DNA from: Acidobacteriota bacterium
Lineage (GTDB): Bacteria; Acidobacteriota; Vicinamibacteria; Vicinamibacterales; UBA8438
Assembly: GCA_009861545.1 (NCBI GenBank)
Contig: VXME01000067.1
Span: 124,001-188,000, forward strand
Direction of reading: 5' to 3'
Length of the DNA stretch: 64,000 nt
In this document: positions 4,947 through 39,062 of the stretch, piece by piece
How the letters are laid out: the number at the start of each line of letters is the position of its first letter
Position numbering within the stretch: the first letter of the stretch is position 1
Made by a program: the position numbers and the translations under genes
Notes under the pieces: model-generated
The model's database searches: none
Seen by the model: only the letters and a program-made list of their open reading frames with translations
What the model was told of the DNA's origin: nothing

Positions 4947-5156
4947 ATGTCGCTCCGAGCCATTCACCTCGTGTTCATCGCCGCGTCGATCCTGCTGGCG
5001 GCGTTCATGGTCATCTGGGGCGTGGCGATGTTCATGACCGAGCGCGGCGTGGCCTGGCATCTGGCGTTCGCGGCGGGATCGTTCTGCGCGGTCGTGGCGA
5101 TGGGGATCTACGCGGTGAAGTTCGTTCGGAAGACCCGCGAGATCGGGATGCACTGA
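4947..5156 (+). CDS. Small two-helix membrane protein in the cox operon
   Basis: 69 aa. Start at 4947 with GGGAG upstream. Two hydrophobic helices (about residues 6-31 and 37-58) are joined by a short loop TERGVAWH, and the tail KFVRKTREIGMH is basic. It is not assigned to a named family. The operon position between subunits IV and II suggests an accessory or assembly subunit of the oxidase (inference). Confidence 0.7.
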   Translation: MSLRAIHLVFIAASILLAAFMVIWGVAMFMTERGVAWHLAFAAGSFCAVVAMGIYAVKFVRKTREIGMH

Positions 5157-5186
5157 TCGGGCGCTCGAGGGAAAGGGAGCAGGCCG

Positions 5187-5480
5187 ATGACAGGAACCGG
5201 AGCGAAAGCCGCGCGGGTCGTTGCGCTGGCGGCGACGCTGTTCGTTCTCGCGCCCGCGGTCGCGTGGGCATGCCCGATCTGCTTCGGGGCGGATCCCGAC
5301 TCGGCGACCGGCCGCAGCGTGAACTGGGCCGTCTTCACGCTGCTCGGGGTCACCGGCGGGGTGCTGAGCGGCTTCGTCGGCTTCTTTTTTCATCTGTTGA
5401 AGCGTTCCCGGCAGGCGCTGGGAAACGATGCGGCGTTCGAGGCCGCGGTGCGGCGCGGCCAGCCCGGAGGGGAATCGTAG
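5187..5480 (+). CDS. Small exported/membrane protein with CPICFG motif in the cox operon
   Basis: 97 aa. A signal sequence ends at AVAWA and is directly followed by CPICFGADPDS, so two cysteines sit at the mature N-terminus facing the periplasm. A second hydrophobic helix (WAVFTLLGVTGGVLSGFVGF) and a basic tail follow. GGGAG lies ahead of the ATG at 5187. The CxxC next to the membrane, in an operon that builds a copper enzyme, suggests a copper-handling or redox assembly role. This is inference, and the family has no function known to me. Its stop abuts the coxB start directly. Confidence 0.72.
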   Translation: MTGTGAKAARVVALAATLFVLAPAVAWACPICFGADPDSATGRSVNWAVFTLLGVTGGVLSGFVGFFFHLLKRSRQALGNDAAFEAAVRRGQPGGES

Positions 5481-6227
5481 ATGGGTGAACTACTGGGATT
5501 GCCGATCCAGGCGTCGGAGCACGCGCCCGAGATCGACGAGATGATCGTTCTGATCCACTGGCTGATGGCGGTGCTGTTCGTCGGCTGGGGGACCTTCTAC
5601 GTCTATACCCTGATCCGGTTCCGGGCGAGCGCCAATCCGAAGGCGGACTACACCGGCGTCACGAGCCACACGTCGAGCTACCTGGAGATCGGCGTGGCGG
5701 TCATCGAGGCGGTGCTGCTGATCGGTTTCGCCGTCCCCGCCTGGGCGCACCGGGTGAACGACATCCCGCCGGAGGAAGAGGCGACCGTCGTCAACGTGAT
5801 CGGCAAGCAGTTCGAGTGGATCTCGCACTATCCGGGCCCCGACGGCCGGTGGGGGCGGCGCGACATCAGCCTCATCACGCCGACCAACAACATCGGTCTC
5901 GACCGCAGCGACCCGAACGGCGCCGACGACATCGTGTCGATCAACCAGTTGAACCTGCCGATCAACAAGCCGGTAATCATCAACCTGTCGTCGCAGGACG
6001 TCATCCACAGCTTCGGCATCGCGGAGATGCGCGTCAAGCAGGACGCCGTACCGGGTTTGCAGATTCCGGTCTGGTGGGTACCGAACGTGCTCGGTCAGTT
6101 CGAGGTCAACTGCTCGCAGCTCTGCGGTCTCGGCCACTACCGGATGCGCGGCTTCGTGACGATCATGGAGCAGGACGAGTACGACGCCTGGCTGGAGGAG
6201 GAGGCGTCCTTCCTCACCGGCAACTAG
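5481..6227 (+). CDS. coxB: Cytochrome c oxidase subunit II (CuA)
   Basis: 248 aa, starting on the base after the preceding stop codon. Two N-terminal membrane helices (about residues 20-45 and 65-90) are followed by a periplasmic cupredoxin domain. The CuA site is intact: His in VIHSFGIAEM, then CSQLCGLGHYRM giving two Cys, His and Met. The usual Glu (CSE) is Gln here; only its backbone carbonyl binds copper, so this should be tolerated. No fused cytochrome c domain follows, so electrons must come from a separate cytochrome c. Subunit II coming last in the operon is unusual; it is more often first. Confidence 0.95.
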   Translation: MGELLGLPIQASEHAPEIDEMIVLIHWLMAVLFVGWGTFYVYTLIRFRASANPKADYTGVTSHTSSYLEIGVAVIEAVLLIGFAVPAWAHRVNDIPPEEEATVVNVIGKQFEWISHYPGPDGRWGRRDISLITPTNNIGLDRSDPNGADDIVSINQLNLPINKPVIINLSSQDVIHSFGIAEMRVKQDAVPGLQIPVWWVPNVLGQFEVNCSQLCGLGHYRMRGFVTIMEQDEYDAWLEEEASFLTGN

Positions 6228-31278: not shown

Positions 31279-32919
31279 ATGGCCTCCGTTCCGAGGATTG
31301 GAGACATCCCACAGCAGCTCTCACCGAAGGAATTCTGGGACCTGTTCGGGCATCTCGAGCACGCCGGGCTCGACTTCAAACGCGGCGTGCCGGCCGATAT
31401 TCGCGACACGATCGCGGCCATGGCCATGACCCATGGTGGATTGATCGTTCACGGGGTCGATGATCGGCGTCTGCTCGTCGGCTGTCCGCTCTCGCAGAAC
31501 ACCCAGGATCGAATCACGCGCATCGCGGCCGAGTGCGGGGTGGACGTACAGCTCCTGGCGCTTGCCGTCGACGACTTGGAGCTGACCCTCTGCGCGGTGC
31601 CGGAAGTGCGCGGCCGGATTGTCACTACTCCCGACGGCCGGCTGCTCCGGCGCGTGGGCGGCGACTCGCAACCCTTGCGCGGGGACGCGATGGCCCGGTT
31701 CGTTCGCGAGCGCGAACATCGAGCGGGCGAGGACGAACCTCTCGCGGTCGTCGATCTGTCGGCCTTCGACATCGCAGCCGTCAATCAGGCGCTCACGGCG
31801 GATGGACGGCCGGCAGTGAAGCGGGATGGCATCGAGCGGGCGCTGACCGACCTCGGCGTCGCCGTCGCCTCGTCACCGCCGCTGGAATCGCGTGTCCTGC
31901 GGGCCGCACTGGTGCTCTTCGCGTCCGAGCCGCAGCCGCAGGTCCGCGGAGCGGCGGTGCAGCTCGTGCGCCGCACGGGGGTCGGACCCGGTCCCGGTCC
32001 TTCCTCCGCGCGCGAGGAGTGCTCCGGTCCGCTGGCCGAAACCGTCGACTGTTGTCTGGGCTTCCTGGCCGCTCACACTCGGCAGTTCGAGACCGTTACC
32101 GGCTCGCGGCGCGAAGCGCTGCCCGAGTATCCCGAACCGGTGCTGCGCGAGGCGATCGTCAACGCGCTGGCGCATCGCGACTACGGCCTGACCGGCGCGA
32201 CGGTGGACATCACCGTCTGGGACGATCGCATCGAAGTGCGCAGTCCGGGATCGCTGCCCGGACACATCACCCTCGGCAACATGCGCGCGGAGCACTACAG
32301 CCGGAACCCGCGCATCATGCGGGTATTGAAGACGCTGGGACTCGTGGAAGAGTACGGCGACGGCATCGATCGCATGTACCGGGAGATGGAGGCTCGACTG
32401 CTGGAGCCCCCGGCCTTCGAGGCCACCGCGAGTTCGGTGACCGTGACGCTGCGGAACCGCATGCTGGTCGATGTCGAAGACCAAGTCTGGCTGAACCAGC
32501 TCGGACGAGACGACGTGACAGCCGGCGAGCGCCGCGCGCTGGTCGCCGCCCGGCGCGAGGGCGCCGTCACGCCGCGCGAACTGCGCGGCATGCTGCCGGA
32601 AACCGATGTCGATACGGTGCTCGCACAGTCGGTTGCGAAAGGACTGTTGACGCGTGTCGGTCGCCGCGGCGGAAGCCGCTACGTGCTGTCGGACGCGATG
32701 GTCCGTCTGGTGGGCAGTCCCGGAATGGCGAAGCAGAACCGGAAGCGGCAATCGCTGCTCGACGAAATCCGCCGACGGGGAAGCCTCTCCACGACCGAGG
32801 CAGCCACTGTGCTGGACGAGGCACCCGCTTTCGCCCGCGGGATGCTGAACGAGCTCGTGCGCGTCGGACTGGCACGGGCCGCCGGCAAAACTCGAGCGCG
32901 GAGATACTACCTCCGGTGA
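31279..32919 (+). CDS. Schlafen/AlbA_2-type putative DNA-binding protein with GHKL-like ATPase domain
   Basis: 546 aa. Residues about 10-150 resemble the Schlafen AlbA_2 domain (LDFKRGVPADIRDTIAAMAMTHGGLIVHGVDD). Residues about 270-385 match the C-terminal ATPase-like domain of 'RecG-like' AlbA proteins (YPEPVLREAIVNALAHRDY, NPRIMRVLKTLGLVEEYGDGIDRM). The C-terminus holds two winged-helix-like segments (GAVTPRELRGMLPETDVDTVL and RRGSLSTTEAATVLDEAP). Such proteins occur as transcription regulators and in defence islands. It faces the methylase/nuclease operon, with its 3' end 179 bp from that operon's last gene. Role here inferred. Confidence 0.82.
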   Translation: MASVPRIGDIPQQLSPKEFWDLFGHLEHAGLDFKRGVPADIRDTIAAMAMTHGGLIVHGVDDRRLLVGCPLSQNTQDRITRIAAECGVDVQLLALAVDDLELTLCAVPEVRGRIVTTPDGRLLRRVGGDSQPLRGDAMARFVREREHRAGEDEPLAVVDLSAFDIAAVNQALTADGRPAVKRDGIERALTDLGVAVASSPPLESRVLRAALVLFASEPQPQVRGAAVQLVRRTGVGPGPGPSSAREECSGPLAETVDCCLGFLAAHTRQFETVTGSRREALPEYPEPVLREAIVNALAHRDYGLTGATVDITVWDDRIEVRSPGSLPGHITLGNMRAEHYSRNPRIMRVLKTLGLVEEYGDGIDRMYREMEARLLEPPAFEATASSVTVTLRNRMLVDVEDQVWLNQLGRDDVTAGERRALVAARREGAVTPRELRGMLPETDVDTVLAQSVAKGLLTRVGRRGGSRYVLSDAMVRLVGSPGMAKQNRKRQSLLDEIRRRGSLSTTEAATVLDEAPAFARGMLNELVRVGLARAAGKTRARRYYLR

Positions 32920-33098
32920 ACCCGGAACCAGTCGTTGCCGCGGCGGACGAGAGAGACACCACCGACGTCAGCCGGTAGGCTCTCCGAGCCCGGTCATGAG
33001 GCTGGCGCGCGGTCCTCCGGTCTCGTTCGTACGACTGCAACGCGTCCTCGACGTTCCCGTTCCTGCCAGCACCTGCCCGAGCGACACCGCGTCCACCA

Positions 33099-33701
33099 TC
33101 AGTCACCGCTATTTTCTTCCTGCTGCTGCATGGATCGGAATAGCCGACGCCGTTCAGCTTCGTTCCTATACCTCGCCCACTTTCTGTGTTCCTCGCACGC
33201 CTCACGGATTGCTCTATCTCTTCGTGATTCAGGATCCCACAAATGCAATCGTAGCGATCGCTGCAGTGCATCGCCATCCCGCATATCCAATAGCGCCTTA
33301 CCCCGACCGGCGTAGCCATTCCGCCGCCACCATGAACTAAACTCGGCCTCAACACGTAGTGTTCTTAGCGGTATTTCCTCGTGCCGAACAGCGTCATACC
33401 ATCGGATACCGCCTGCTGTAGGTATGACGCCTATTTGGATTGACTGACCAGTCTTCATTGATGGATGTCCAAACGGCGGCAACACCTTACCATCCACCCA
33501 AATGTGGACGACAACGTCGCGAGCTGGCCGACCGCTATGCTGTTCCAGGTAGAGCCCCAGACTATAGTCTCCATTATCTCGCTGCCTGATGTTGACGTTG
33601 ATACTCGTCGCGATATTAGTCCATGCAATACATGCCGAAATACTCGTCGCGACTGCTGTTGCGAACAAGAACAGTGTATCCATGCTCTGCAATTCCTTCA
33701 T
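33099..33701 (-). CDS. Membrane-anchored protein of unknown function, last gene of the methylase/nuclease operon
   Basis: 200 aa from ATG at 33701; a second ATG at 33683 would also do. One N-terminal helix (TLFLFATAVATSISACIAW) is followed by a beta-rich domain (YSLGLYLEQHSGRPARDVVVHIWVDG, about residues 48-130) and a charged, helical C-terminus (RDRAIREACEEHRKWARYRNEAERRR). No family recognised. The start lies 9 nt after the preceding small gene's stop with GGAGGGG between. By eye the DNA is markedly less GC-rich than the rest of the window (near 50-55%), suggesting recent acquisition. Confidence 0.65.
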   Translation of the reverse strand: MKELQSMDTLFLFATAVATSISACIAWTNIATSINVNIRQRDNGDYSLGLYLEQHSGRPARDVVVHIWVDGKVLPPFGHPSMKTGQSIQIGVIPTAGGIRWYDAVRHEEIPLRTLRVEAEFSSWWRRNGYAGRGKALLDMRDGDALQRSLRLHLWDPESRRDRAIREACEEHRKWARYRNEAERRRLFRSMQQQEENSGD

Positions 33702-33709
33702 CCCCTCCG

Positions 33710-33883
33710 TCAGCTGCACACCAGCCAGACGGCGATCAGAAACGCCGCCGGCACTCGCCGGCACGGAATCCCCCAGCGGCGTCGCCTCCGGGGACCGGTG
33801 CTGCGTTGATCCAGGTGGTCCCCAATCGCGAGGAGCCGCGTGTCGACCACCAAGACGGCGACGATGAACGTGAGCTGGGGCAT
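33710..33883 (-). CDS. 57-aa small membrane protein
   Basis: The frame from ATG at 33883-33881 to TGA at 33712-33710 gives a hydrophobic start (MPQLTFIVAVLVV), a basic middle (GPRRRRRWG) and a second short hydrophobic stretch (PAAFLIAVWLVCS) at the C-terminus. The ATG overlaps the stop of the preceding peptide gene (TGATG) and the next gene's ribosome site follows the stop at once. This coupled arrangement is the main support. No homologue known to me. Confidence 0.5.
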   Translation of the reverse strand: MPQLTFIVAVLVVDTRLLAIGDHLDQRSTGPRRRRRWGIPCRRVPAAFLIAVWLVCS

Positions 33884-33981
33884 CACGCCACATCGTAACG
33901 ATCAGCGTGGATGTTAAGCAACGCGATGGCGGCCCATAGACAGCCGATTCCGGCATTTGCGATCAGCGCGGTCCACATCAT
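33883..33981 (-). CDS. 32-aa single-helix membrane peptide
   Basis: The ATG (33981) overlaps the nuclease stop codon (ATGA). The product is one hydrophobic helix (MMWTALIANAGIGCLWAAIA) with a short polar tail (HADRYDVA). The stop overlaps the next ATG. Real if the coupled chain nuclease-peptide-peptide-anchor is an operon; too short for confidence on sequence alone. Confidence 0.45.
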   Translation of the reverse strand: MMWTALIANAGIGCLWAAIALLNIHADRYDVA

Positions 33982-34769
33982 GTGCGCCGCCGGTACGCAG
34001 CCAGATCCTCGTCCGTCAACTCGCTTGGGTCTACCAGCTTGTAGTGGCTTTCCCGAAGGATCTTCACCTCGTCCCCGATCTTCTCGAAGGCGAAGAGCGC
34101 AATCACGTTGGCGCGCATGAACTGCGCGGCCACGGGACGACACACGAGCGCAGGGAATCTGGATTCACAAAGCGCCGTGTCCTGCTCGATCTGCACGATG
34201 TTCAGCGTGTCGCTTCCGCCCTTGGCCTGGACCGGAATGACGTAATGGCAGCCCCTCGCGTCGACCCCGACGTACAGCTCGTCCGTCTCTACTTGGCCGA
34301 TGTCGGGCACGGTTGTCCGCAGATGGTTCTGGAGCGAGTAGCACGTGATGCCCAGGAAGATGTCGATGAGCCGGTTGTACCGCACTCTGGCCAGCAGGGC
34401 CTGCTCGTCTCCAAGGGCGTACATCGCGACGACGCCGGGCGTGGCATCCGGCACCTTCGTGAACGCCATCTGCTCGTTCGGGGCGAGCCGAATCGGTCGC
34501 GTCAGGACGAAGCAGTATCGACCCCGTCCTGCACCTCGGATGATCCACTCGTGGCCCTCGGTGGCAGTAGCCTGGATGGACTCGGGCAACGTCCTTCGAT
34601 ACCGCGCGCTGTAGACGACGTCGCCGACGTTGCTCGGGGCCGGGACACCGCGCCGCTCGGCGGCTGCCGCGATATCGGGTCTCTCGAAATCGACCCGCGC
34701 CATTCCCTTCTCGAACTTGGAAAGGAAGATCTCCTCGATGATGGCGGCGTAGGCGCTCGATTTGGACAT
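33978..34769 (-). CDS. Probable PD-(D/E)XK restriction endonuclease
   Basis: 263 aa from ATG at 34769; an in-frame GTG at 34784 is an alternative. The motif TDELYVGVDARGCHYVIPVQAKGG contains acidic D163/E164 and, after a beta-strand, Q181-A-K183, matching a PD-(D/E)XK core of the ExK/QxK kind. Upstream residues (IIEEIFLSKFEKGMARVDFER) are helical. It lies 30 bp downstream of a DNA methyltransferase on the same strand, the usual layout of a type II restriction-modification pair. Recognition sequence unknown. The stop overlaps a small membrane-peptide gene. Confidence 0.75.
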   Translation of the reverse strand: MSKSSAYAAIIEEIFLSKFEKGMARVDFERPDIAAAAERRGVPAPSNVGDVVYSARYRRTLPESIQATATEGHEWIIRGAGRGRYCFVLTRPIRLAPNEQMAFTKVPDATPGVVAMYALGDEQALLARVRYNRLIDIFLGITCYSLQNHLRTTVPDIGQVETDELYVGVDARGCHYVIPVQAKGGSDTLNIVQIEQDTALCESRFPALVCRPVAAQFMRANVIALFAFEKIGDEVKILRESHYKLVDPSELTDEDLAAYRRRT

Positions 34770-34799
34770 GGCGGGAAAAGCCACTCAGGACACGGCGCA

Positions 34800-36128
34800 T
34801 CAGCCGGGCCAACGGAGCCGGACGACTTCCTCACGCAGTTGCTGACGGCTGGCCGTGGCAATCCGCGTCCGGAACAGGTCGATTGCAGTCAGCTCGTAGC
34901 CGAGGCGCTGGGCGAGCTCGCCGAGGATCCGGCCGGTCCGAATCATCACTCGCAGGTACGAGGCCTGGTCGCCGACGACGTACGCAAGTCTCGCGCCGGG
35001 ACGCAGACGACTCCGCAGGCCGGACAGGTGCCGGACCATGCCGCCGAAGTACAGCTTCGTGACCCGCGCGTACTGGCGCTCGAAGCCGGACGTCTTGCCC
35101 AGCTCGACCCGGCGCTCCTCGATGCGCCGGGCGATGCGCTGTATGCCCTCGTGCTCGGCGACGAGGGCGTCGTCGGTGTCCGCCTTGTAGACGCTGCGCG
35201 TGTTCGACCGCACGAGGCCCTGCTTCAGGCCGCGCAGCTCCTGCCTGCTCCGGACTAGACCAAGCAGCACGCTCTCCAGCCGGGTCGTCCGCGTGTAGTC
35301 CTTCTCGTTGGGATACGGCGGAGACGTGATCACCGCGTCGATGGACGACGGCTCCAGCAGCTCTTCCGCCGCACGCGAGTCCGCCAGGTGCACCGTGGCC
35401 TCGGTCCCCGCCCGTGCCTTCAGCGCCGCGAGGTCATCGCCCATCTTGCGGACTCGCTCGAGCCACGGCCCGGTGACCGGGGCGTCCTCCCGCACCTTTC
35501 CGACGCCCACCTCCGGTCCGAAATACAGGTTGCCGATGCCCGAGACGAGCGCCGTCGCCAGAGCGAGCCTCTCATGCTCGCGGACAGCCTCGTCGCGATG
35601 CTGCTCCAGCGTGTCGAGCAGCACGAGCGTCTTGTGGAGCGGCAGCGGGCTGATCGAGTTCTTCAGCAGAAGACTCAGCAGTTCGGGGGACAGTGTCCGG
35701 AGCTCGGCGGTCCGCCGCCCTTCCGTCTGGAACAGCGGCGCCACGCCGAGGTCGTCGATGCCGTCCTCGTGGAGCCTCGTCAGCGCCCGGTCGGCGACTT
35801 CCCCGGCGTGCGAGAGAAGCGCCTCTGGGTCGACGCTCCAGTCCACCTTGGTCCGGCTCGCGAAACCGGCCATCGGATTGCGCTCGATGCCGACGCTCGG
35901 GATGCCGAGCTTCTTGCACTCGACCAGCGTCGTGCCGGTGCCGCAGAAGGGATCGAGAACCCGTTGCGAGGAATCCACCCCGAAGGTGTCGAGGTAGTCG
36001 CGCACCAGGTGCGACGGGAAAGAGAGGACGAAGCGGTACCAGTCGTGAACGGCGCGGTCCTCGGGGCGCAGCCGGTTCCGTTCCGGAGCGCTCTTGCCGC
36101 GGGCCCGCGTTGCGGTGACGCCGGTCAC
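34800..36128 (-). CDS. DNA methyltransferase (N4-cytosine/N6-adenine type)
   Basis: 442 aa from GTG at 36128, which overlaps the glycosyltransferase stop (GTGA); no ATG lies nearby. Motif I is DPFCGTGTTLVE (residues 59-70) and the catalytic motif IV is TSPPYPN (268-274), separated by a helical region of about 200 residues. AdoMet motif I therefore precedes motif IV, an alpha-like order. The segment SPPYPNEKDYTRTTRLES resembles methylases found beside type II nucleases. It would protect host DNA against the downstream PD-(D/E)XK enzyme. Target base not decidable from sequence. Confidence 0.85.
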   Translation of the reverse strand: MTGVTATRARGKSAPERNRLRPEDRAVHDWYRFVLSFPSHLVRDYLDTFGVDSSQRVLDPFCGTGTTLVECKKLGIPSVGIERNPMAGFASRTKVDWSVDPEALLSHAGEVADRALTRLHEDGIDDLGVAPLFQTEGRRTAELRTLSPELLSLLLKNSISPLPLHKTLVLLDTLEQHRDEAVREHERLALATALVSGIGNLYFGPEVGVGKVREDAPVTGPWLERVRKMGDDLAALKARAGTEATVHLADSRAAEELLEPSSIDAVITSPPYPNEKDYTRTTRLESVLLGLVRSRQELRGLKQGLVRSNTRSVYKADTDDALVAEHEGIQRIARRIEERRVELGKTSGFERQYARVTKLYFGGMVRHLSGLRSRLRPGARLAYVVGDQASYLRVMIRTGRILGELAQRLGYELTAIDLFRTRIATASRQQLREEVVRLRWPG

Positions 36129-37570
36129 GTGGACTGCTCCTCCGACAGGGGCGAGAAGTCCAGCAGTACCCAGCGGGCGCCCTCGACCACGGTCCGACCC
36201 GATCGTCCGGCCGCGGCGAGATCCGCGAGGAGATCCCGGTCGCACAGCAGCAGGCGCGACGGATGATTCAGCGCGGCCGCTACCGCCGCGTCCGCATCCG
36301 GCGCCGGGGTTGCCAGCCTGCGCTCCGCGTAATACAGCAGCGGGTTGGCATGCTCCCAGAAGCGCCGGCCGAGGTAGGGCAGCGGTTCCTCGGTCGCCAC
36401 CCGCTCCTGGATCAGCTCCGCGTGCCGCTTGAACGGCCCGTTCAGGTCGCGCGTGAGGGCCGCCGGCGACACGACGAACGTCGCGGCCGCCGCCAGCGCC
36501 ACGGCGGGGACGACCCGGGTAGCGAGATGGCGCTCGACAGCCGGGAGCGCGCGTTGCAGCCAGAGGCTGGCGCACAGGGCCAGCGGGGGCAGAATCGGGT
36601 AAAGGTAGCGTGGCGACCTCGCAGCCGACAGGCTGTACAGCAGGATCGGCAACAGCGCCCACGCGACGAGCAGGGCCTCCTCCGCCGTCCACCGGCGACG
36701 ATTCCGGACGAGGACGATGCAACCGAGCAGCCCCGGGATGACGATCGGCTGGTAGTGCTGGAGCAGGATCAGCGGATAGCCCAGCACCGCCGACAGCGGA
36801 TCGAACCCCGCGCCCGCGCGCGACCCGATCTCGCCCCAGTAGTGCGCCCAGACCGCCTGCGGGCCGATGGTCAGACCCTGGTGAATCGTCCAGGACGCGC
36901 CGAGCCCCATCCCGAGGGCGATGCCGGCGCAGAGCCATCCGGCGCGGCGCGGACGCCACTCCGGATGGAGGCATGCCAGGGCCATGATGGGCACGGCCAG
37001 CAGTCCCAGCACGCTCTTGGTCAGGATGGCGCCGGCCAGCGGCAGGGCGATCGCCAGATGGAGCCACGGCCGCCGGCGGCCCTCGATGAACAACAACAGC
37101 GCCGACGAGGTCCAGAACGCCAGGGGCAGGTCCAGCATGCAGCCGCGCGCGCCGTTCACGAAGATCGGACTGATGACGAGGAGCGCGGCGGCCGAGAGCG
37201 CGGTCCGCCGGTCGACCAGCCGTTGGCCGATCCGGAAGGTCAGCAGCAACGTGGCGACGGCCATGAGCAGCGACGGCAGGCGCGCCGCGAGGTCGCCCTC
37301 GCCCAGCACGCGAAACGAGACCGCCAGCAGCCAGAAGTGCAGCGGCGGGTTCTGAAACGCGGGCTGCCCCGCCCACGTCACCGTGAACGAGCCGCCGCCG
37401 CGAGCCATCTCGACACCCTTGCGGGCGTAGAAGGCGTCGTCGAGGGAAGGCAGGCTCAGGCCGGACATGCCGGCGGCGAAGAGGGCGGTTGCGCTCGCGA
37501 GCAGGACGATCACCGTCGCGAGCGAGCGGGGTCGCGTCGATGGGCGAGCGGCCGGCGACGGCGCCGTCAC
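36125..37570 (-). CDS. ArnT/PMT-type membrane glycosyltransferase
   Basis: 481 aa from GTG at 37570, one base after the ankyrin gene stop. About eleven helices. The family acidic motif in the first loop is PSLDDAFYARKGVEMA, followed by FQNPPLHFWLLAVSFRVLGEGDLAARLPS, matching dolichyl/undecaprenyl-phosphate-sugar glycosyltransferases (GT39/GT83). A soluble C-terminal domain of about 130 residues follows. It transfers a sugar from a lipid carrier to an envelope acceptor. Its overlap with the methylase start is probably incidental to island insertion (inference). Confidence 0.85.
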   Translation of the reverse strand: MTAPSPAARPSTRPRSLATVIVLLASATALFAAGMSGLSLPSLDDAFYARKGVEMARGGGSFTVTWAGQPAFQNPPLHFWLLAVSFRVLGEGDLAARLPSLLMAVATLLLTFRIGQRLVDRRTALSAAALLVISPIFVNGARGCMLDLPLAFWTSSALLLFIEGRRRPWLHLAIALPLAGAILTKSVLGLLAVPIMALACLHPEWRPRRAGWLCAGIALGMGLGASWTIHQGLTIGPQAVWAHYWGEIGSRAGAGFDPLSAVLGYPLILLQHYQPIVIPGLLGCIVLVRNRRRWTAEEALLVAWALLPILLYSLSAARSPRYLYPILPPLALCASLWLQRALPAVERHLATRVVPAVALAAAATFVVSPAALTRDLNGPFKRHAELIQERVATEEPLPYLGRRFWEHANPLLYYAERRLATPAPDADAAVAAALNHPSRLLLCDRDLLADLAAAGRSGRTVVEGARWVLLDFSPLSEEQST

Positions 37571-37571
37571 G

Positions 37572-39062
37572 TCACTCGTCGGCGCCGAGCTCGCGCAACC
37601 GCGCCGCGATCTCCGGTTGCGTCGACCGCAGGCCGTTGCTGCCGATGACCGGCAGGCTGGTCTCGGCCAGGACCAGCGGCGTCTGGCCGCGGTCGTTGAA
37701 CGCGTCGAGGTCCGCGCCTTGCGCCGCGAGCAGATCGACGACCGATGCAAAGCCGGTCCGAACGGCGTCGTGGAGCGCCGTGTTGCCCCGATCGTCGGCC
37801 TGGTTCACGTCGACCCCGAGGTCCAGGATGGTGCGGGCGAGATCCAGGGTCAACCGCTCCTGGTCGATGCGGTCCATGTGGTCGTCGGGCGCGTCCACGC
37901 GGTTGCGCCGGTCCTCCTGGGAGATCTGCGGCACGCCCATGGCCGCCTTCAGCGCGGACCAGCGGCTGGACGGCGACACCCGCGGATCGGCGCCCCGTGC
38001 GGCCAGCATGCGGAGGATCTCCAGCTCGCCGTAGCGCGCGGCCAGCCAGAACGCGTTGGCGCCGACGGCCTGGTGCCGGATGCTGAAGTCGGCGCTGAAC
38101 CGGCGGCCCGGGGTACCCCGCTCGACGACGGCGTCCACGTCCGCGCCGTGCTCGAGAAGCGCCGCGGCCAGCTCGGCCTGGCTGCGCAGCGTGGCGGCGT
38201 GCAGCGCCGTGTAGCCGGCGTCCGCCGCGTTCGGGTCGGCGCCCTGCTCGAGCAGGTAGACGCCGAGTGGACCGTGGCCGCTGTGAGCGGCGATGACCAG
38301 GGCGCTGGTGCCCGCCGCCGCGACGTCGTCGACGTCGGCGCCGGCCGCGACCAGCGCGCGCGCCGTCTCGACGTCGCCGTTGCGCGCCGCGAAGAGCAGC
38401 GCGGTCGAGCCGCCGTGGTTCTTGCGGAAGTTGCCGCTCGTGTTGGTGTTGCCGGCGGTGTTCTCGAGCTGCTCCCAGACCCGCGTGCGGGCGTGCACGT
38501 TCGCACCCCGCGCGGCCAGCAGGCGCACGACATCGGCGTGCTGCTGGGCTGCCGCCCACATCAGCGCCGTCTGGTGGCGTTCGTACTCCACCGCGTTCAC
38601 GGCGGCGCCACGGTCGACGAGCAGTTCCACGACCCGCACGTTGCCGCTCCGGGCGGCGCTCATCAGCGGGGTCTCGCCCATCCGCAAGGTGACGTTCGGG
38701 TTGGCGCCGGCCTCGAGGAGTATCCCGACGACAGGGGCGCTGCCGTGCCCCGCGGCCAGCCACAGCGGCGTGGCGCCGAGCGCGTTGGCGGCGTTGACGT
38801 CCGCGCCCGCCTCTATCAGCAGTGCCGCCGCCTCGACATCGCCGCGGTGCGCGGCCCAGTGGAGCGCGGTCGCCCCGTCGCCCTGCGAATCGTCGGGGTC
38901 GGCATCCGCCGCGATCAGACCGCGCGCGGCGGCGAGGTCGCCCGTCCGGACCGCCGCAATCAGGTCCGGCTCGGCGAGCGCGTGCGCGAACGTCGCTGTC
39001 GCCAGCAGGAGAGCGGCCGCGACCGCTGACACGAAGCCTTGCGTCGAGGATCTGTGAGCCAT
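37572..39062 (-). CDS. Exported ankyrin-repeat protein
   Basis: 496 aa. A signal peptide ends near FAHALAE. About ten ankyrin repeats follow (for example GATALHWAAHRGDVEAAALL, GETPLMSAARSGNVRVVELL, GNTALHDAVRTGFASVVDLL) with a less regular stretch at about 190-215 and 335-400. Ankyrin proteins bind other proteins; periplasmic members are common in this group. TAGCAT (RC of 39070-39075) lies 7 nt before the ATG and could give a leaderless mRNA. Confidence 0.9.
   Translation of the reverse strand: MAHRSSTQGFVSAVAAALLLATATFAHALAEPDLIAAVRTGDLAAARGLIAADADPDDSQGDGATALHWAAHRGDVEAAALLIEAGADVNAANALGATPLWLAAGHGSAPVVGILLEAGANPNVTLRMGETPLMSAARSGNVRVVELLVDRGAAVNAVEYERHQTALMWAAAQQHADVVRLLAARGANVHARTRVWEQLENTAGNTNTSGNFRKNHGGSTALLFAARNGDVETARALVAAGADVDDVAAAGTSALVIAAHSGHGPLGVYLLEQGADPNAADAGYTALHAATLRSQAELAAALLEHGADVDAVVERGTPGRRFSADFSIRHQAVGANAFWLAARYGELEILRMLAARGADPRVSPSSRWSALKAAMGVPQISQEDRRNRVDAPDDHMDRIDQERLTLDLARTILDLGVDVNQADDRGNTALHDAVRTGFASVVDLLAAQGADLDAFNDRGQTPLVLAETSLPVIGSNGLRSTQPEIAARLRELGADE

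Follow-up and report, generated by a model that had tools for sequence, protein, structure and literature searches.

A probable type II restriction–modification pair beside a variable slot in a broken monooxygenase gene of a Vicinamibacterales bacterium

Organization of the locus

Five consecutive open reading frames lie on the minus strand between positions 33099 and 36128 of the window, the 64,000-nucleotide stretch of DNA analysed here. The first (36128 to 34800, GTG start) encodes a DNA amino-methyltransferase of 442 aa, the modification enzyme, and its start overlaps the stop codon of an upstream glycosyltransferase gene as GTGA. The gene for a type II restriction endonuclease of 263 aa follows downstream (34769 to 33978) after a gap of 30 nt. 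Its stop runs into a 32-aa frame (33981–33883) as ATGA, which in turn overlaps a 57-aa frame (33883–33710) as TGATG. The last frame, of 200 aa (33701–33099), follows a gap of 8 nt with the Shine–Dalgarno-like sequence CGGAGGGG. The frames and their overlapping junctions are thus as given in a preliminary description of this DNA, which had also noted the close spacing of the 200-aa frame but put the gap at 9 nt. Scans for promoters, terminators and Rfam families found nothing.

Beyond the 200-aa frame lies a gene on the plus strand (31279..32919) for a protein of Schlafen/AlbA_2 plus RecG C-terminal type (PF13749, E = 2e-22; PF04326, E = 3e-5). Copies that are 83–90% identical occupy the same site in two genomes of the same genus, denoted G183 and G185. 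At the other end, a PMT_2-type glycosyltransferase gene (36125–37750, minus strand) sits between the methylase gene and an ankyrin gene. It is absent at this site in G183 and G185, where the methylase and ankyrin genes are nearly adjacent.

The whole region had been described as low in GC. This holds for the 200-aa frame (33099–33701, 52.6%) and the 32-aa frame (33883–33981, 56.6%); the 57-aa stretch (68.4%), the nuclease gene (63.1%) and the methylase gene (68.9%) are nearer to the window mean of 69.8%.

The methylase–nuclease pair

The methylase carries the signature sequences DPFCGTGTT (motif I) and TSPPY (motif IV) and matches both PF01555 (E = 4e-10) and the PADLOC profile MTase_II (E = 3e-38). 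The nuclease matches the PADLOC REase_II profile PDLC03404 at E = 1e-115 over residues 3–260 of 263, nearly its full length. Its AlphaFold model has a pLDDT of 88.8, and the best hits of a structure search with this model include PD-(D/E)XK proteins, though weakly matched (E of 3e-3 against the PDB, TM-scores near 0.25). The fold is probably PD-(D/E)XK. D170, A182 and K183 are invariant and Q181 is nearly so; D170 together with QAK183 is the candidate active site.

When bacteria and archaea were scanned at one genome per species, relatives of the nuclease proved to be encoded at 36 loci, which belong to Acidobacteriota, Planctomycetota, Chloroflexota, Bacteroidota, Cyanobacteriota and other phyla. 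At 35 of them the nuclease is directly preceded by the same methylase (47–91% identity to that of the window), within 75 nt in most; at the remaining locus (L032, Actinotignum) the upstream methylase shows C5-type motifs, as read by eye. The genes downstream of the nuclease vary from locus to locus, and none of the 36 loci holds a relative of the 57-aa or the 200-aa product. We therefore regard the methylase and the nuclease as an ordinary two-gene type II restriction–modification system, with the other frames standing apart from it, and assign this reading a probability of about 0.88. The restriction–modification layout proposed in the preliminary description is borne out by the REase_II and MTase_II matches and by the conserved pairing.

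In such a system the methylase would mark a base within the recognition site and the nuclease would cut incoming DNA that lacks the mark. The modified base is probably cytosine, because related nucleases are guarded either by an SPPY amino-methylase, as here, or by a C5 methylase. A literature search on the plasmid-borne homologue described below found no characterization of its recognition site.

The pair takes several other forms among the relatives. At L032 (3696–4991) and L122 (271–1521) a member of the nuclease family stands with a C5-cytosine methylase in place of the amino-methylase, as though methylases were swapped around a conserved nuclease. A single open frame encodes a methylase–nuclease fusion of ∼ 720 aa at L010 (2135–4288) and L015 (3621–5780). 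At L066 (7495–7970), L069 (3677–4371) and, near 5001–5790, L031, L029 and L035, the nuclease is frame-broken or truncated next to a full-length methylase, as if restriction had been lost and modification kept; assembly errors may explain some of these breaks.

Remnants of a monooxygenase gene downstream of the nuclease

The product of the 32-aa frame has a single match among the 36 loci, the start of an FAD-dependent monooxygenase at L031 (TALIVGAGIGGLSAAIALRN). Intact homologues of this enzyme, of ∼ 385 aa, are encoded in the same bacterial family (PF01494, E = 8e-22). Residues 1–21 of the monooxygenase correspond to positions 33919..33981 (minus strand), 67–76% identical to the intact homologues, and make up most of the 32-aa frame; G183 has a counterpart in the corresponding position downstream of its nuclease gene. 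With a query of only 21 residues, this segment reaches E values of 0.03–0.2 in a scan of the whole window. A second remnant, corresponding to about residues 300–328, lies directly after the 200-aa frame at 33014..33100 (minus strand). Its frame is broken, and it is 85% identical at the DNA level over 85 bp to the genes at L031 and L114 (E about 1e-20 in the window). Both ends of the enzyme are thus represented by homologous pieces, on the same strand and in the right order, with the reading frame destroyed.

On these alignments the 32-aa frame reads as the decayed N-terminal FAD-binding motif of a monooxygenase, a call that leans in part on where it lies and on its counterpart in G183. The preliminary description had taken the product for a membrane peptide; its hydrophobicity is shared by the matching segment of an intact monooxygenase homologue. 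The 32-aa frame overlaps the nuclease gene simply because the stop of the latter extends into what was once the start of the monooxygenase gene.

Two further observations concern the same gene. Eighteen bases at 32961–32978 (plus strand) are identical to the final codons of the monooxygenase gene and lie on the opposite strand to the other remnants, which hints at a local rearrangement or at chance. In another genus of the family (L031, 2752–3423; L114, 887–2044) an FAD monooxygenase gene, oppositely oriented, adjoins the same pair at its methylase end, so that the association between monooxygenase and restriction pair recurs there in a different arrangement.

The 57-aa frame between the remnant and the 200-aa frame is doubtful as a gene. 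Its product has no homologues, with chance-level matches only (193 genomes), and a comparison of both this product and the DNA of 33700–33980 across the class returned only short or arginine-rich chance matches. Its sole support is a host-like codon-position GC, and this counts against our main explanation, which leaves the frame unexplained. Independent support for the 32-aa and 57-aa frames as genes was found for neither, and the 32-, 57- and 200-aa products all match no family in Pfam, NCBIfam, PADLOC or PHROGs.

A variable slot in genomes of the same genus

G183 and G185 share the flanks of the window locus, namely the Schlafen/AlbA gene at one end and, at the other, the nuclease, methylase and ankyrin genes. 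What lies between nuclease and Schlafen/AlbA gene differs in each: G183 carries the Septu genes ptuA (frame broken) and ptuB, G185 a dGTPase gene, a 297-aa frame that belongs to no known family, and a gene for a GNAT protein, and the window the 200-aa orphan. Pieces of the monooxygenase persist in all three, covering residues 1–72 in G183, 26–44 and 58–350 (with gaps) in G185, and 1–21 and about 300–328 in the window. Downstream of the nuclease a broken gene houses a variable slot, which lies outside the restriction system. We suggest that the monooxygenase gene downstream of the nuclease was broken by insertion, although a search for direct repeats marking such an event found nothing convincing, and that the gap from the restriction pair to the Schlafen/AlbA gene became a place where foreign genes come and go. 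The cargo in the window would be the low-GC orphan for a probably membrane-anchored protein of 200 aa, where the sister genomes carry Septu or dGTPase.

The 200-aa frame and alternative explanations

The 200-aa frame probably represents a genuine gene, an orphan that was acquired horizontally. Its open length was equalled in only four of 1000 dinucleotide shuffles, and its GC3 is 0.52, compared with 0.80–0.95 in the neighbouring large genes. One hydrophobic N-terminal helix is predicted, and the product is probably membrane-anchored. A second start codon (M7, 33683) is preceded by AAGGA; the protein may begin here, in which case it would have 194 aa and open with the hydrophobic helix. Single-sequence folding reached a pLDDT of 48, at which structure matches are meaningless. 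A set of matches in the phylum (E = 4e-4 to 9e-3 over 396 genomes) was rejected as chance-level, often being interrupted by stops.

Alternatively, the frame could be no gene at all, and its open length an accident in foreign DNA that is non-coding or decayed. In favour of this, no relatives of its product were found in the class, the phylum (about 590 genomes), plasmids, phages or IMG/VR viral contigs, and the codon-position signal is small (GC of 0.58/0.47/0.52 at the three positions). The shuffling result speaks against chance opening, as does the plausible anchor that the protein would have at its N-terminus if begun from the second start, with AAGGA before it. We consider this explanation unlikely, though it deserves to be kept in mind.

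The orphan could also be an independent single-gene defence effector or toxin-like gene, anchored in the membrane, which shares a hotspot with Septu and dGTPase and acts apart from the restriction pair. Known defence genes in the same slot of the sister genomes, the foreign composition of the frame and the hydrophobic N-terminal helix are consistent with this. However, the protein has no homologue, family or confident fold, and the slot in G185 also contains genes of no known defence family, so that location is weak evidence. A defence role argued from location is possible but unsupported, and we regard the specific proposal as improbable.

The preliminary description had joined all five frames into one membrane-linked restriction cassette, whose anchored protein would position the nuclease or sense envelope events with the help of the small peptides; the shared strand, tight overlaps, Shine–Dalgarno-like sequence and hydrophobic stretches in the 32-, 57- and 200-aa products speak for it, but neither the 36 related loci nor G183 and G185, which share its flanks, contain this chain. 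The small frames are not conserved, the 32-aa frame is enzyme debris and the composition of the 200-aa frame differs from that of the pair, and we give the proposal very little credence. No relative of the anchored protein, whether beside the methylase or apart from it, was found in any search. Where a pseudogene follows a real gene pair, short hydrophobic frames and tightly overlapping starts and stops can be mistaken for an operon of several genes.

Comparison with known systems

Under our preferred reading, a two-gene restriction–modification system next to a variable slot, the pair itself does not differ from other type II systems of the PDLC03404 type, in which a full-length methylase gene is directly followed by a full-length nuclease gene; what sets the locus apart is the decayed gene and orphan frame that come after. 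Small mobilizable enterobacterial plasmids, mostly of 4–5 kb, carry a homologue of the nuclease at 55% identity. On the one inspected, the ColE1-like Klebsiella plasmid pB1019 (NC_019988), the methylase is again directly upstream but is a C5-cytosine enzyme (PF00145) unrelated to the amino-methylase of the window; the nuclease gene is followed by replication genes, not by membrane genes. That one nuclease family is partnered by an amino-methylase in the window and by a C5-cytosine enzyme on the plasmids suggests a common cytosine target.

Compared with the intact FAD-dependent monooxygenase (PF01494), the gene is destroyed in this genus, and in the window its N- and C-terminal pieces flank the cargo in order while the middle is missing. 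The cargo in the window is unrelated to Septu (PtuA/PtuB) and to dGTPase, the defence genes that fill this slot in the sister genomes. The locus thus offers a small variable slot beside a restriction–modification pair in Vicinamibacterales, in which the presence of Septu and dGTPase in sister genomes makes the unexplained cargo worth a test.
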